A stretch of 29,650 nucleotides of DNA from a virus, in the IMG/VR virus record IMGVR_UViG_3300015202_000037, positions 1 through 29,650 of that record; one strand, written 5' to 3'. The translations under genes were made by a program, and so were the position numbers. The notes under the pieces were generated by a model. It was not told where the DNA came from, searched no databases, and saw nothing but the letters and a program-made list of their open reading frames with translations. Shown here one piece after another: positions 7,545 through 18,792 of the stretch; position 1 is the stretch's first letter; every line of letters begins with the position of its first letter.

Positions 7545-10500
7545 TCAGTTCCTTCTATTCAAGATAGTGCCATTACGATGCTCGTTATTTATCCACTTAC
7601 GGAAAGACTTACTCTGCGTTCGTAGCAACTGCTCGAGGTCGGCATTTTGGTGACTATGTTGTGGTTGAAAGTTAAAGGTATTAGAAATCGAATGTTCTCG
7701 GGCCGCCGAGCCGGCTGCCGATGCGGTATTGAAAACTTGATTACTTCCGGATGCTCGAAGGTTTGCGCGCAAGGGATTAGCCGCCCAAGCGGGCAAAACC
7801 ATCTCATCCTTGTGAAGCTCGGTCATTTGTCCATCGTAAGGAACTTGAACTTGACCTCCTTTCGCGGAAGCAAATGCCCCGAATGCCAGCACCGCAGCGA
7901 ACGTACCGGCAGCTGCAGCAGCTCCTAGCACAGGACCGATGATTGGTATTCCGGCTAGCGCCGCATACGCACCTGAAGCTGCCTTAGCGGCGTTTGCACC
8001 AATAGCCTTGATTGCTGTGATGAAGTTGATACCGCGTTCCTCAGCGGCACCGGCAACAACCGCGCCGACTCGAGCCTGTGTACCAACCACAGTGGACACA
8101 GTTTTGGCCGCCTCAGCTCCTGCGTGTGAGGCTACGTCAAGACCGGTAGAAGCGCGGGTAACGGTATCTTTGAAGATCAAGGTCTTAATCCAGTTGGTTA
8201 ACATCTTTGAGGCCATGTCAGTCCAAGTGGTTAATACGGTGAGCGCCATCCCTCGCATTGCAGCGGTGAAGTTGAACCCGTGCTGAATACCTGCGTTAAG
8301 CGATTGCTGAAGGTGAGAAGCCATGGCATCGTAAACTTTAGTCCACGTGGCATTCGTTGCACTACTTGCTTGCTGATTGGCTTTTTGATACGCGATCAAT
8401 CCCTTGCTGCGGATTTGATCCATTTTATCTTGGTGTATTTGCTCTTGCTGCTCAATCTGCTCGTTGATATTCTTGATGGAGTCTTTGCTAAGATTTTCTG
8501 TACGAAGTTGATCTTGAAAAGAAGCCACCCGCTTTTGGTTGATTGCTTCCTCGAGTTGTTGTTCATCCTGTATTTGCTCGACTACTAAGGCTCTTTTGGC
8601 TTCGGCATACTTGCGATCACTAATGATACCTTGCTCATGGCCATAGTCAAGCGCACCCCCTTTAAGGTCTTGACCCGTTTTCTTTTCTTCGCTCGCCCGA
8701 TCCACAGGCTTTTCAGAGTCTTTTTCTTTTTTCTCCATCATCTTGGTACGCTCGTCGGCTATTTTTCGCTGAGCATCGCGATAGGCTTTAGCAGCCTCTT
8801 GAAACTCTTTCGACTCCTCGTGCATCACAAACCGAACTTTAGCAAGGTATTTATCCCAAGCAGCTTCCTCAGCGGCCAAGTCACCCTTTGCTTCATCAAT
8901 CTTATTTTTTAACGCGGCAATATCATCGGAGTAATCAGACTTAGCGATCTTCTTACGTAGTCCAGCAATCTTAGCATCAATTGCCACGTAAGTAAGCGAT
9001 CCCGCTTTAGCAGTTGAAAGCTTTTTGGTCCAATAGTCAAGCTCAAACTGATCGGCGTCGGCAAAGTAATTTTTCTGCAAATTAAGCTGACGGTTCAAGT
9101 CTTCTTGCATCAACGATACTTCACTGGGACCTTTAGGCTTATGGCCTTTCTTAGGTATATCGCCCGCATCAAACTTTTTATCGATCCGAGCATCTTCAAT
9201 TTCAGGATGAGCTAAACGATACTTCATCTCTTTCCGGTGGTTCTCATCCGTCAAGGGGTTATCGAGAAGTTCCTGCGCTTCTAGCTTCCACTTATCTTTT
9301 TCTCTTTTTGCTTTTTCATGGGCAGTACGAGTAACTTTCTCTAGCTCGTCAAAATTCTTTTCAAGGTCATCGACCTGTTTGATTTGCGCACTCTTTCTAC
9401 CCTGATCGGCATCCGCGGCCATTTTACGCTGAATATCCAACTCTTCCTTTTGAAGTTTAGCTTTATAGGCAGTGTCTTGTCCAGGGTGGTACGTATTCTC
9501 TTGAGCAAGCAGCTGTCGAATATCCGCTAACCTTTTTGTGGGAGTTGCTGCTTTACCTATATCCTTCATGGCTTGCCACAGGTCGCCCATCGCAACAGCG
9601 GCATTGTGAGCAAACTGGCCAAGACCATTAAGCTCAACCTTTTCGGATTGAATAGCCGCGTTAAACTTATCGGACAACTCAGCTACGGCGGTTGTTCTAT
9701 CCCCCATTTCTTCTAACTTACGGATATGGTCTTCTTCTTCGGGAACCAGAAAGTGGAATTGATCTTGAAGTCGTTTCATCGCGGGGAGCGGGTCATCCGC
9801 CATCTTGATAAGCTCTTTAGTTATCTCCGCAGCTTTTTCACTGGATTGGTCAGATACAGTAGCAATAATCTCGCCCATGGTAATCATGGTTTGACCGGTA
9901 ACTCGCCCCGAGGCGGCTAGCTCGGTCAATGAGGCGGTTGCTGCACTTGCGCTGGTATGAGTTTTTTCTCCGATGCGCTTACCCGCTTCCTCCACTTGAT
10001 CGGCAGTCATCCCCGCATAGTGGCCCGTCATAGAAAGTGCTCGTTGAAGCTTAACCTGTTCAATACTTCCTTCATAAGCTGCGTAAGCAAGCGCGCCGAG
10101 CGAAACTACGACACCCGCAATAACTGCACCCATACCACTAAATACCACAGACATAGCTGCGCCTGTGGCGTCAGCGCCGGCTAATGCTTGACCAAGGATC
10201 ATCGCTGAGGAAGACATTCTCGTCCAGCGGTGCGCCAGTGCTTCGTGAACTAGGATCAAAGACTCGTAGGCTGCGCGATTGTTTATTGTATGCCCCGTAT
10301 TCGTCTTCAACGCCTGGCTAAGACCTTGCTCTGCGGCACTTACAGCATTTAACCGGGTCGTTTCATCAATATGGCCCGATGCCGCCAAGCCATTGGCCAT
10401 TTCCACAGCTTGGTTATATTTAACTTGGGCGGCGTAAGTTTTATCGAGTGAAGACTTTAGTCGTTCGGCTGAGGCTGCTCGCTGTTGCTCAGCGCGAGCG

Positions 10501-11555
10501 GCATCTTCTTGCGCTTTTTCAAGTTTACGCGCTTGTACTGAAGCTTTAGCATCTGCCTCTGCAGCTTTAGCGGTTGCAAGCGCAACTTTCTCTTCGGCAA
10601 TTGCAGCTTCCGCCGCAGTTCGTGCTTTTACTGCAGTTGCTTGGGCCAGTACTTCATCCGCTTGGGCTTGCTGTGCCGCAGCAGCAAGAGAAGCCTCCGC
10701 GGCGGAGACTTGCGCGGCTGAAAGAAGGGTCGCTGCTTCTGATGCCTGTATGTCGGCGGCGGTAACTTCAGCTGCGGCGGCCTTCGCGACTTCAGCTGCG
10801 GTTCTTTCTGCCGAAGCCGCACGGTTAGCCGCTTCTTGTCTAGTTGTAGATACGCGCTGAGTATTGCGAACACGCTGACTTGCAACGGTATCTTCAACTT
10901 GGGCAATTTTGAGCTGTATCGCTGCTTCCTCTACGGCTGCTGCTCGATCAGCCTCTAAAGTTGCGCGAGGAATGAACTGGCCTTGAGCATTGCGAGGTCG
11001 AGCGGGTAAAGTAAGTTTACTAGCTTCAGCAGCCGCAAGGCTATCTTTTGCTTCTTGTAATGCAAGTGAGCTACGCGCTTTAACTTGTCTAGCTTCATTA
11101 ACCGTAATACGGGCCTGTTCCGCTTCACGCTCTAGGGTCAAACGGCGGATATTCGCGCTAGTTGATTTTGCCGCGGTATCTTCGGCTCGATTACGCGCTT
11201 GTGAGGCGCGAGTCATGGCGGTTGCGGCTTCATTAGCTACCGCAGTTCCTTTAAGTTGCTCAGACGTTTGACGAGCAAGAGCTTCTCGAGCCTTCTCAAT
11301 GGATAAGGCATATTCTTTTTGTCCCAATACGCCTTTGCTCATCAGCATATCCAACTGGACAAGGGTATTGTTGTACTGGGTTTGAGCCGCATACATGGGA
11401 TCTAGTGATGACCGCAACTTCTTAAATGCTCGGTCAAGGTCACCCGCTTCTTGAGTAACCTTCTTGATAGCTGCAGCTGCTGCTTTTGAGCCTACCTCAA
11501 TATCGGTAGGATCAGCACCAATGCGGATATTAAGATTGTCATCATTGTTAGCCAT
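7545..11555 (-). CDS. Tail tape measure protein
   Basis: The largest gene (1336 residues) sets tail length and is ejected with the DNA. Residues about 100-440 are alanine-rich coiled coil. Residues 467-495 form a hydrophobic segment (MGAVIAGVVVSLGALAYAAY). Near the end is a second hydrophobic alanine/glycine stretch (GIPIIGPVLGAAAAAGTFAA) followed by KGGQVQVPYDG and ELHKDEMVLPA, a common tape-measure C-terminus. The phage tail-length motif LxSSLDxxYAAQxxYN occurs twice, at about residues 49-64 and 368-383, which suggests an internal duplication. A charged middle part (lysine/glutamate rich, 700-1050) is also helical. The ATG overlaps the chaperone T-frame stop by one base; a GTG one codon earlier is an alternative start. 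Confidence 0.93.
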   Translation of the reverse strand: MANNDDNLNIRIGADPTDIEVGSKAAAAAIKKVTQEAGDLDRAFKKLRSSLDPMYAAQTQYNNTLVQLDMLMSKGVLGQKEYALSIEKAREALARQTSEQLKGTAVANEAATAMTRASQARNRAEDTAAKSTSANIRRLTLEREAEQARITVNEARQVKARSSLALQEAKDSLAAAEASKLTLPARPRNAQGQFIPRATLEADRAAAVEEAAIQLKIAQVEDTVASQRVRNTQRVSTTRQEAANRAASAERTAAEVAKAAAAEVTAADIQASEAATLLSAAQVSAAEASLAAAAQQAQADEVLAQATAVKARTAAEAAIAEEKVALATAKAAEADAKASVQARKLEKAQEDAARAEQQRAASAERLKSSLDKTYAAQVKYNQAVEMANGLAASGHIDETTRLNAVSAAEQGLSQALKTNTGHTINNRAAYESLILVHEALAHRWTRMSSSAMILGQALAGADATGAAMSVVFSGMGAVIAGVVVSLGALAYAAYEGSIEQVKLQRALSMTGHYAGMTADQVEEAGKRIGEKTHTSASAATASLTELAASGRVTGQTMITMGEIIATVSDQSSEKAAEITKELIKMADDPLPAMKRLQDQFHFLVPEEEDHIRKLEEMGDRTTAVAELSDKFNAAIQSEKVELNGLGQFAHNAAVAMGDLWQAMKDIGKAATPTKRLADIRQLLAQENTYHPGQDTAYKAKLQKEELDIQRKMAADADQGRKSAQIKQVDDLEKNFDELEKVTRTAHEKAKREKDKWKLEAQELLDNPLTDENHRKEMKYRLAHPEIEDARIDKKFDAGDIPKKGHKPKGPSEVSLMQEDLNRQLNLQKNYFADADQFELDYWTKKLSTAKAGSLTYVAIDAKIAGLRKKIAKSDYSDDIAALKNKIDEAKGDLAAEEAAWDKYLAKVRFVMHEESKEFQEAAKAYRDAQRKIADERTKMMEKKEKDSEKPVDRASEEKKTGQDLKGGALDYGHEQGIISDRKYAEAKRALVVEQIQDEQQLEEAINQKRVASFQDQLRTENLSKDSIKNINEQIEQQEQIHQDKMDQIRSKGLIAYQKANQQASSATNATWTKVYDAMASHLQQSLNAGIQHGFNFTAAMRGMALTVLTTWTDMASKMLTNWIKTLIFKDTVTRASTGLDVASHAGAEAAKTVSTVVGTQARVGAVVAGAAEERGINFITAIKAIGANAAKAASGAYAALAGIPIIGPVLGAAAAAGTFAAVLAFGAFASAKGGQVQVPYDGQMTELHKDEMVLPAWAANPLRANLRASGSNQVFNTASAAGSAAREHSISNTFNFQPQHSHQNADLEQLLRTQSKSFRKWINNEHRNGTILNRRN

Positions 11556-11902
11556 CACATGATCATCCCGCCTGCGCCAGCCATTTTAAGTAGCTCGCTG
11601 AGGTCACTGCTTTGTTGGTTCTTACCTTTATTTTTCTTCTTGATAAGACCCAGGTAGCCAGCAACAGAAACATAGACCGGCGGACCATTATCAGACCACC
11701 ATTCAACCATCGCATAATACCGAGGAAGAGTCCAGCCCCGTTTCACCTTTATCCAACTACCGCCCTCACAGCCGGCAGCTACGAGCTCTGCGATGAACCG
11801 AGTACAGTCTCCGTCGAAAGACTCACCGCCTCCTTCGACGGAGGCGTGTCTTCCCCCTCGGGAGCCACCAGGCCGGCCTCCACAAGGATCTCGTCGATGC
11901 AA
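11555..11902 (-). CDS. Tail assembly chaperone T-frame, expressed as a G-T fusion by -1 frameshift
   Basis: This open frame overlaps the 3' part of the G-type gene in the -1 frame and ends at the tape measure start, the standard place of the lambda T frame. It has no convincing start codon of its own: the first possible start, TTG at 11902, lacks a ribosome site. It is therefore most likely reached by frameshifting at 11851-11857, giving a G-T fusion of about 214 residues (116 from G and 98 from T). The T-domain contains RGWTLPRYYAMVEWW and GPPVYVSVAGYLGL, typical of T-domains, then a lysine-rich tail (KKKNKGKN). The fusion is expected to bind the tape measure and recruit tail-tube subunits; it does not remain in the virion in lambda. 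Confidence 0.75.
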   Translation of the reverse strand: MHRRDPCGGRPGGSRGGRHASVEGGGESFDGDCTRFIAELVAAGCEGGSWIKVKRGWTLPRYYAMVEWWSDNGPPVYVSVAGYLGLIKKKNKGKNQQSSDLSELLKMAGAGGMIM

Positions 11903-12269: not shown

Positions 12270-13022
12270 TCAAAGGCCGCCGCCGTTAATCGAGGTAGTA
12301 GTGATACGGGCAACACGATTGTTGGCATCAGCAAAAGCTGAGCCCGACATTTCTGCCATCAAGTAGTCTTCCATCTTTAGCGGCAGGTTAAGCTTGTCCG
12401 TCACATTGCTGTAAAGGATCAAGGTGAAGGTTTTGCCCCCGTAGGTTTGCGACAGGATCAACTTGAACCGAGGAGTTGAGCCCATCAGCTGGTTGCCAAT
12501 TTCGAGGCTGCCTCCCGTCGAAGCAGACTCATACATGTAGTTGATCAAAACTCCCTTACCCGTATCAGCAGCGGCGAAAGTGTAGACGCCCGCCGCGACC
12601 GAATACTGGCCGGTGGTGGGTCCGCTGGCGACCTGTTTGAGCTGTGAGCCATCCGATGAGAAGGATACCCCCAGGTCTTGATAGAAGTTTGCCGCATGAG
12701 CAACAGAGATGGTATAAGGCCCCGTAGCCGGGATGCTGGCCGGCTCGTTAAGAACCTGAACAAGCTCATCGCCGGTGGTCTCGGTTTGACCGAAGAAAAG
12801 CGTATTGAAAGCCGTAACATCGATGTTGGCTGACTGGGCTTTCCATTCAACCTTCGTTTTGCCCCGGGCACTGTCCAGCGGGAACTGGTACTGACCGTAT
12901 AGCATCTTGATATCGCCGGCAAAGTCGACCGACACATCTTGAAGTGCACCGAAGCGCAGCGCGGCACCACCGCCAATGGGCGTCGCAAAGAGCTGCCCGG
13001 TGCCGAAAACATACTGACTCAT
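12270..13022 (-). CDS. Major tail tube protein
   Basis: A 250-residue protein upstream of the G/T chaperones and tape measure, the usual position of the tail tube subunit. The N-terminal part (GTGQLFATPIGG, FGALQDVSVDF, KMLYGQYQFPLD, KTKVEWKAQSA) matches tube proteins of other siphoviruses. Residues about 95-165 form an inserted beta module (IPATGPYTISVAHAANFYQD, then QYSVAAGVYTFAAADTGKG) that recurs in two other virion proteins here and probably projects from the tube surface. The C-terminal part (RFKLILSQTYGGKTFTLILY) closes the tube fold. ATG at 13022 is seven bases after AAGGAG; a TTG two codons upstream is less likely. A strong stem-loop follows the stop. Confidence 0.86.
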   Translation of the reverse strand: MSQYVFGTGQLFATPIGGGAALRFGALQDVSVDFAGDIKMLYGQYQFPLDSARGKTKVEWKAQSANIDVTAFNTLFFGQTETTGDELVQVLNEPASIPATGPYTISVAHAANFYQDLGVSFSSDGSQLKQVASGPTTGQYSVAAGVYTFAAADTGKGVLINYMYESASTGGSLEIGNQLMGSTPRFKLILSQTYGGKTFTLILYSNVTDKLNLPLKMEDYLMAEMSGSAFADANNRVARITTTSINGGGL

Positions 13023-13100
13023 TTTCAAGCTCCTTGTTTACCCAACGGGATCATCCCGCTTCCACAAACTGATTGCGCAGCCCCGGGTATGTGAAACCTA

Positions 13101-14113: not shown

Positions 14114-14922
14114 CAGACAGGAACCACATTGCGGTAAGGCTGAATAAGAGCTTTGACCGTATCGCTAATATCATTGGTGGAAAAGCTGACCGTTTCTTGG
14201 CCACCTAGTGATTTGCTGTTTAGGCCGATACGCTCTTTCTTCTTGTACCATTCACCCACAATCTGAGTAACACCAAAGGCTACGTCCCAAGGAGCATAGT
14301 TATAAGCTATAACCAAGCTTGCATTTTCTTCCGCGGCGTTAAAGGTATAAGCACCCCAATCATCGACGTAGTATTCCCCCGCCGCGGGGGTTGAGTTGCT
14401 GGTTAGAACCATCGCAACCCCATTTTTCTTAACACCCATATCCGCGGTCCATTGACCTTTATCCTGGGGCGAGATTGTGGTCTGTTCATTCATTGCGAAG
14501 ATAAAATTGATGCTGGTCTGAAACCCGGCGACATAGATTATGCGACAAAATGCCCCAAGCCAAAAGCTGGAGCTATACAAATCGAGAGACTGGGGAGCAG
14601 AACGACTGTCGCCGCCGATAACATACCCGTTACTGGGTAGCCCTCCTTGCCCGATTATCGCGGGAGATATTAAGTTACCGCCAATCCCTAATTCTGTAAC
14701 CGACACCACGGGCCAGTTGCGTAAAAGCTGACAAGTTTTGCCATTTCCGCGAAAGCTTTGAGAATAGGTATTCACTTGCAAGCTATCACGGTTCATGTAG
14801 TTTAAGGCGAACTGAGAGGCTGCATCAATAATCCGAATAAGCTGGTCATCAGCCACGTTCGGGGTGTTGGCTAATAGCAGCCAGTCTTTGACTGCATGAA
14901 GTGTGGTCAGCCTCTCAGTCAT
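14113..14922 (-). CDS. Head-tail connector (gp6-like adaptor) with inserted beta module
   Basis: A 269-residue head-completion protein. The N-terminus (LTTLHAVKDWLLL, then DDQLIRIIDAASQFALNYMNR) is the helical start of gp6-like connectors that bind beneath the portal. The strand blocks SQSFRGNGKTCQLLRNWPV and LGAFCRIIYVAGF also fit that family. Residues about 147-208 (SPQDKGQWTADMGVKKNGV, then AAGEYYVDDWGAYTFNAAEE) are extra compared with a minimal connector and resemble the beta module of the tail-tube and DUF2460 proteins. The protein then returns to a connector-type helix (DVAFGVTQIVGEWYKKKERI). ATG at 14922 follows GAGGA by eight bases. Confidence 0.75.
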   Translation of the reverse strand: MTERLTTLHAVKDWLLLANTPNVADDQLIRIIDAASQFALNYMNRDSLQVNTYSQSFRGNGKTCQLLRNWPVVSVTELGIGGNLISPAIIGQGGLPSNGYVIGGDSRSAPQSLDLYSSSFWLGAFCRIIYVAGFQTSINFIFAMNEQTTISPQDKGQWTADMGVKKNGVAMVLTSNSTPAAGEYYVDDWGAYTFNAAEENASLVIAYNYAPWDVAFGVTQIVGEWYKKKERIGLNSKSLGGQETVSFSTNDISDTVKALIQPYRNVVPV

Positions 14923-16935: not shown

Positions 16936-18792
16936 TTAACGCGGGTTAGCAGTCAATAGCCTGCCGCCACCCGCATGGGATGCTTTGATCATCGCGAGGG
17001 CAACGGCGTCGGGCCCTTGTGTCGCAATCATATCATGCAAGTGTTCGCGAAGAGAAGTCTCCGAACCGAACGACTTACCAAATGCCTGAAGTGAAACATC
17101 GCCGTCGCGGAGTGCCACATTCTGTGGGTTCGGCGCACGAGGCATGGGGGTATCTTCCACAGCTTGTATGCGCTTCGCCAGTCCTTCGACTTGTTCGATT
17201 GCATCGGTCGCAATCTTCTTGAGGTCAGTATTCTCCGACTCCAATCGATCGAAGCGCTTCTGAAGGTCGTTATCAACGACCGGCGCAACAACCGGATCGG
17301 TCATGCCGCCGAACGCTTTGATGAGCACCTGACGCTTCTCGCGGCTGGCGTCACGAACTTGCTCGATGACAGCGCAGGCATCTTTCGACAAAACATCATC
17401 ACTATTAGCTTGCGCCGCGCAGTAATAATAGTCATAGATAGAAGCCAGCTCATCGTCATTGATACCCGCCATTAGTTCGGTAATCTGGCAGTCGAGATAT
17501 TCTTTGAGAACTTCCCCCAGGCCGGTCATGCTTTCACAAATAGCCATCCACGACTTCATGTCTTCTGGATCACCAGCTTCACCCGAACTTTCGTCTGAAC
17601 CTTCACGCTTGATGGCAAGTGCGATGTTACCCATATCCCACAGGGCGCGAGCGAATGACGAGACAGTATAAAGACCTTTTTCAAGTACGGGTTTGCCGTC
17701 AACAAAAGGCTTAGTCAGTGCATCGAAAACGTCGCCCATTCGGGTAAACGATTTTTCGAGGGGCACTTCAATAATGGTGGGGTTTTCAGTCGCTTTAGCG
17801 AGACGCTCACGCAAACGATCCAGGTCAGTCATCGTTGCCGCTTTGACAAGTTCTTCCTCATGAAAAGCTGCATCAGCCTTTTTCGAAAATGCTCGTCCGT
17901 CAGAAGTTAACCACTTTTGCTTCAGGCGGCCGGCAACATCCGCCCCGGCGGCCTTTTTAGCATCGGCTAACTTTTTCTTTTCTTCTTCAGACTGGTCATC
18001 CGAGTTTTCTTCATCGGTGTCCAGGTTTGCACCGGCGTTCTCGGTATCCTCTTCACCCTCTTCGGCCGCGGCTTCACCCTCATCCGTAATTTCGGTGATT
18101 GCAACATCATTGCTCGAGGCTTCCTTAATCAAAAGCTCACGGGCGTCGTGAATATGATCCATCCAGGTCGATCCGTCAGCTTTTTGAAAAGCTAACTTCG
18201 TGGCCTTTGCGACCACCTCATCATTCTTGGGCTCAGTGGTGGTCTTGAACATATTAGTCTCCGTGTCGGCTGTTACTTTTCCAAGGGAACGATCCTCGAT
18301 AGACCCATCCGCTTTGATCAGCTGAAAGGTAGCCGACTTAACGCATGGGTTGTCTACCAGACTAACCTCGTTGGGGTCAGCGGTATACTTCTTTATGGTT
18401 TGTCCATTGATCGTCTCCGCCCACTTTTTTTCGTAGCGGCCGCCAACGCTGAAACCCGTGTAACATCCTTCAAGAACATTGTTCCACTCGGCATCATCCG
18501 TAACCTTGGCGCAAACTTCGATAGATTGGTCTTCATCGTTATATGAGATGTCGGTCAGCTTACCGCCTACCTTAAGGCCGTGCATCACTCGCAAGTTGCC
18601 TTTAGACAAGCCCCCGGATGCTTCCTCGATCATAGACGACCACTTTTGAAAGTTGGGTACCGACGTGGCATAGTCCATCGTCTCACCCGACTGGTCTTGT
18701 TCTTGCGCGGTGATACGCCCGTAAACAAGACGTTGATCTTCATCCACTTTGACTAGTGGAACGAAGACACCGAGCTTCTTCGATTTACTCAT
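16936..18792 (-). CDS. XkdF-like prohead serine protease fused to scaffold
   Basis: A 618-residue protein combining a maturation protease with a scaffold. Residues 1-160 are protease-like: LVYGRITAQEQD, candidate catalytic His71 in LRVMHG, candidate Ser115 in YTGFSVGGRYEKKW, and the closing block EVSLVDNPC seen in prohead proteases. Residues 238-275 are a strongly acidic, low-complexity linker. The remainder is mainly helical, with coiled-coil-like stretches at about 520-555 (FDRLESENTDLKKIATDAIE), as expected for a scaffold that guides capsid assembly and is then degraded. No separate scaffold gene lies between this gene and the capsid gene, which supports the fusion. ATG overlaps the portal stop (ATGA). 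The catalytic assignment is by motif only. Confidence 0.82.
   Translation of the reverse strand: MSKSKKLGVFVPLVKVDEDQRLVYGRITAQEQDQSGETMDYATSVPNFQKWSSMIEEASGGLSKGNLRVMHGLKVGGKLTDISYNDEDQSIEVCAKVTDDAEWNNVLEGCYTGFSVGGRYEKKWAETINGQTIKKYTADPNEVSLVDNPCVKSATFQLIKADGSIEDRSLGKVTADTETNMFKTTTEPKNDEVVAKATKLAFQKADGSTWMDHIHDARELLIKEASSNDVAITEITDEGEAAAEEGEEDTENAGANLDTDEENSDDQSEEEKKKLADAKKAAGADVAGRLKQKWLTSDGRAFSKKADAAFHEEELVKAATMTDLDRLRERLAKATENPTIIEVPLEKSFTRMGDVFDALTKPFVDGKPVLEKGLYTVSSFARALWDMGNIALAIKREGSDESSGEAGDPEDMKSWMAICESMTGLGEVLKEYLDCQITELMAGINDDELASIYDYYYCAAQANSDDVLSKDACAVIEQVRDASREKRQVLIKAFGGMTDPVVAPVVDNDLQKRFDRLESENTDLKKIATDAIEQVEGLAKRIQAVEDTPMPRAPNPQNVALRDGDVSLQAFGKSFGSETSLREHLHDMIATQGPDAVALAMIKASHAGGGRLLTANPR

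Follow-up and report, generated by a model that had tools for sequence, protein, structure and literature searches.

The slippery heptamer of the phage lambda G/GT pair is GGGAAAG. In that system, a short gene G is overlapped by a T frame at -1, the two are joined in a fusion product, and the pair stands before the tape-measure gene (review, PMC5009743). In SEA-PHAGES, all of the approximately one thousand tail-chaperone frameshift sites of the "fivetwo" type carry the word GGGGGAA, and a G:U argument for the re-pairing of GAA on GGA has been given for them (PRFect, PMC10885494). The RefSeq record of Bxb1 is annotated with "ribosomal slippage," and in its gp20 we find an in-phase GTG GGG GAA close to the end. 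The same heptamer has been proposed for ORF14/ORF15 of corynephage phi16, together with an upstream Shine-Dalgarno-like GAGG and a downstream pseudoknot (PMC5506516); the end of ORF14, which we checked, reads GGG GAA GAC TAA in phase. GGGGGAA itself is not a canonical X_XXY_YYZ heptamer, being composed of five plus two bases and not of two runs of three.

Here, we describe such an arrangement in a 29.65-kb virus record, analyzed over its whole length and referred to as the window, in which the structural genes lie on the minus strand, as do all features given below. The tail-assembly-chaperone-like short open reading frame G (12198-11779, 139 amino acids) begins with an ATG preceded by aaggaag and lies after a structural gene and ahead of the tape-measure gene. 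The structural gene directly upstream (12270-13028) matches phrog_8234, a family of unknown function (E value, 5e-55), and probably encodes the major tail protein, as judged from gene order only. The T frame, at -1 relative to G, stays open from 11905 until a stop at 11555 and overlaps G by 127 nt; in an alignment with relatives, its conserved core starts at about 11836 (FDGDCTRFIAELVAAGCEGGSW...) and runs to that stop. G and T together stand directly upstream of the tail tape-measure gene (7545-11558, 1337 amino acids; Pfam TMP_2; E value, 1.4e-26).

Within the overlap, the heptamer GGGGGAA occupies 11857-11851 in the phase G|GGG|GAA; the G frame reads GAG GGG GAA GAC around it, the heptamer starting at the last base of GAG, and the codon read after a -1 slip is AGA. 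It is followed by a 7-nt spacer, GACACGC (11844-11850), and by a predicted hairpin (11843-11809; -21.8 kcal/mol) with 13 pairs including one G-U. The 5' arm, CTCCGTCGAAGGA (11831-11843), lies in a linker that varies among relatives, folding gives a loop of 9 nt (11822-11830), and the 3' arm, TCTTTCGACGGAG (11809-11821), also codes in the T frame for the start of the conserved core (FDG). A sequence-only reading had put these elements forward as a complete cassette for -1 frameshifting in a tail chaperone pair, with a T frame that lacks a usable start and overlaps G; all of them are present on the minus strand base for base, and the junction GGG GAA AGA that it gave is correct, with AGA as the postshift codon. 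Searches of the window for tRNAs and Rfam families returned no match.

G belongs to an 18-member family (A2), and neither Pfam nor PHROGs placed G or T in a curated chaperone family, returning weak matches to unknown families only. Family searches revealed no sequence similarity of G or T to lambda G/T, and G had no match in the PDB by sequence or by fold. The predicted fold of G has a pLDDT of 83.5 (two rows from a phage collection were left out of the underlying alignment), and its best match in a library of viral structures is the "Tail assembly protein GT" of N15 (probability, 0.99; TM score, 0.53), with an E value of 0.048 that is not significant; lower-ranked viral fold matches are also named tail assembly chaperone.

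Relatives were collected through neighboring genes, since G by itself recovered no viral-contig relatives in a protein search and only two phages. A nearby major-capsid-like gene used as bait yielded 80 loci, and the T alignment then yielded 42 viral-contig loci, many from the same contigs, plus one contig of Caulobacter sp. CCUG 60055 (L125). The latter is the only bacterial-genome match to T, carries GGGGGAG in phase, and is probably a prophage, which hints at hosts in the Caulobacteraceae. The T core is 48 to 67% identical in relatives, and it is more conserved than G.

Both G and T are recognizable in 24 loci, counting the window; in 24/24 of these, we observe T at -1 relative to G, together with an in-phase G_GGG_GAA or G_GGG_GAG. 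In a nonredundant set of 46 loci found through T, from which near-duplicates with >80% identity around the site were removed, 39 have GGGGGAR no more than 81 nt from the conserved T core and in the phase that the shift requires, compared to none in either of the other two phases. The seven exceptions carry CCCTTTG (L113, L114, L121, and L124), CCCAAAA (L051), GGGGGGG (one locus), and AAACCTT (one locus), and five of them are in-phase canonical heptamers that take the place of GGGGGAR just upstream of the T core. L113, L114, L121, L124, and L051 thus appear as natural slippery-site exchanges inside a single T family. In three relatives (L009, L012, and L013), the T frame opens, after a TGA, exactly at the heptamer; with the T core located downstream, this confines the shift to the stretch that begins with the heptamer and ends ahead of the core. 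The base preceding GGGGGAR in the 39 relatives is C in 69% of cases and A in 31%, with G and T both absent, so that the G run stays at exactly five. In one relative (L046, 8533-8563), the overlap that holds GGGGGAA also holds another in-phase heptamer, GGGAAAG.

The mere presence of the word proves nothing, as the window contains four copies of GGGGGAA where 4.2 are expected; the case rests on comparison, and it is the phase-specific conservation among relatives that lifts the heptamer beyond chance. Elsewhere in the core loci, 64,292 codons from long genes contain the in-phase word 3 times, or once per 21,000. Nor can the site be put down to conservation of a Gly-Glu dipeptide: of the 311 Gly-Glu pairs that these long genes encode, only 3 are spelled G_GGG_GAR, which points toward selection at the nucleotide level. 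Two additional in-phase copies in the window, inside structural genes (14374-14380 and 17512-17518), act as negative controls and were rejected as frameshift sites: a stop ends the -1 frame 6 and 20 codons on, respectively, and, apart from one copy at the 14380 position in L013, the word is not conserved in relatives. Their occurrence is probably due to chance.

The 49-nt cassette is more stable than 197 of 200 shuffled sequences (z = -2.71), so that the hairpin by itself exceeds shuffles only to a moderate degree, and the 80 nt downstream of the heptamer show no excess stability over shuffles in the window (z = -0.26), so that the evidence for the hairpin has to be taken from tests of the linker. 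The 3' arm consists of conserved T coding sequence and the 5' arm of diverged linker, and across 26 core relatives each linker folds better with its own 3' arm than do linkers swapped between loci (z = -4.5; P = 5e-5). Compared with their own codon-shuffled versions, the linkers of 24 loci give a combined Stouffer z of -6.6, and that of the window a z of -2.6 (P = 0.013); the loci compared are not fully independent, and their kinship inflates these values somewhat. The hairpin is missing or weak in several loci with short linkers (L002, L101, L093, L094, and L096), as well as in L087 and L088. Unlike the window, the Brevundimonas phages vB_BpoS-Strzyga and -Polewnik have 10-nt linkers with no evident hairpin. 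Taken together, these comparisons suggest a downstream hairpin as a trait of the group, one that is variable and absent from some members.

Overall, the cassette is very probably a programmed -1 ribosomal frameshift signal. The claim made for the tail chaperone pair is strongly supported by the phase-specific conservation of the heptamer in relatives. The sequence-only reading had named this comparison beforehand as one that could refute it: the relatives that keep T also keep GGGGGAR in phase, and the hairpin held up only in part, being lacking in some of them. Frames, phase, conservation, and the place before the tape-measure gene are observed directly and indicate a real and selected site, from which we infer slippage, its rate, the tandem re-pairing, and the chaperone role. 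The majority of ribosomes would read G to its stop at 11779, and a minority, slowed by the downstream structure, would back up by one base on G|GGG|GAA. The tRNA-Gly on GGG would re-pair with GGG, and the tRNA-Glu on GAA would re-pair with GGA through a G-U at the middle position. Reading would then resume at AGA in the T frame to give a G-T fusion that ends at 11555. By analogy with lambda, G and G-T may serve as tail assembly chaperones, loading the tape-measure protein and recruiting the tube protein of the tail.

Three other readings of the locus bear on this scheme. T might be translated alone from an internal start, leaving the heptamer as a by-product of coding, and a TTG at 11902 in the T frame, the sole start-type codon upstream of the conserved core, could serve that purpose. 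However, this TTG has no Shine-Dalgarno sequence, the T frame of most relatives, including the three in which T opens at the heptamer, contains no start codon ahead of the core, and the heptamer is conserved in a phase-specific manner; an internal start is therefore highly improbable, and we regard it as largely refuted. Slippage might also involve the P-site tRNA only, moving from GGG to GGG on G_GGG with an empty A site, so that the next codon would be GGA (Gly), the junction would be Gly-Gly-Arg instead of Gly-Glu-Arg, and GAA would matter little. Re-pairing at the P site is indeed perfect, and the middle G-U in the A site is hypothetical: the systematic heptamer survey in Escherichia coli covered X_XXZ_ZZN words only (PMC4066793), the dnaX free-energy study kept second positions unchanged (PMC6787027), and so neither gives the cost of such a pair. 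A free A-site codon should nevertheless vary more than is observed: the overlaps contain 54 in-phase G_GGG tetramers, and GAA or GAG comes next in 44 of them. For GAG, the third pair would improve upon the move to GGA, in the manner of AAG-to-AAA sites. The preference for GAR favors tandem slippage, in which tRNA-Glu shifts from GAA to GGA, and makes P-site slippage by itself rather unlikely in our view.

The remaining alternative concerns the stimulator, which might be not the 13-pair stem but a 7-pair hairpin, CGCCUCC/GGAGGCG (11822-11847), that starts 4 nt past the heptamer. A downstream UUCGAC is complementary to the loop of this hairpin, GUCGAA, and pairing of the two could give an H-type pseudoknot. 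Suboptimal folds with this hairpin reach -22.2 kcal/mol, within 1 kcal/mol of the best fold at -23.0 kcal/mol, and the structure proposed for phi16 after the same heptamer is likewise a pseudoknot (PMC5506516). With just zero to one nucleotide available to cross the second stem, we consider it unlikely that the short hairpin takes the place of the longer one. Beyond the window, tandem slippage on GGGGGAR with a middle A-site G-U may represent a general, selected rule across several G/T families of non-Actinobacteria phages. Such a rule would accept both GAA and GAG, would draw its stimulation from a hairpin that is quickly rebuilt and shares its 3' arm with the coding sequence of T, and would interchange over evolutionary time with the canonical sites CCCTTTG and CCCAAAA. 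We put forward this generalization as a serious possibility that falls somewhat short of an even chance.

The heptamer of the window had been regarded as unusual and as widening the range of slippery sites used by tail chaperones. GGGGGAA is, however, an established tail-chaperone slippery site, already present in PRFect, phi16, and the Bxb1 RefSeq record, and the G-U re-pairing of the second tRNA, given as the reason for calling it unusual, was argued in PRFect (PMC10885494) before; the case of the window is ordinary in kind. What it adds to the users of GGGGGAA is a phage group whose named relatives are associated with Brevundimonas and Caulobacter. In addition, phase-specific conservation, combined with replacement by canonical heptamers, indicates that this noncanonical word does act as a slippery site.

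Compared with the actinobacteriophage "fivetwo" sites, e.g., Bxb1 gp20/gp21, the window is alike in its heptamer, phase, -1 direction, and place before the tape-measure gene, whereas the protein families differ, its nearest named relatives being Brevundimonas phages and the Caulobacter contig. Unlike those sites, the family of the window also uses GGGGGAG. We found no mention of GGGGGAG together with frameshifting in the literature searched, and the GAG variant may be the less documented of the two. With phi16, the window shares GGGGGAA but neither the host group nor the protein sequences, and with lambda it shares the G/T layout but not the heptamer. Strzyga and Polewnik display the same G/T layout as the window, with GGGGGAG in phase instead of GGGGGAA. 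In their records (L001, 5276-5970, and L002, 6001-6695), G and T are annotated as two separate hypothetical genes with neither a frameshift nor a fusion, and the comparison with the window thus reveals a putative, previously unannotated frameshift in both phages.
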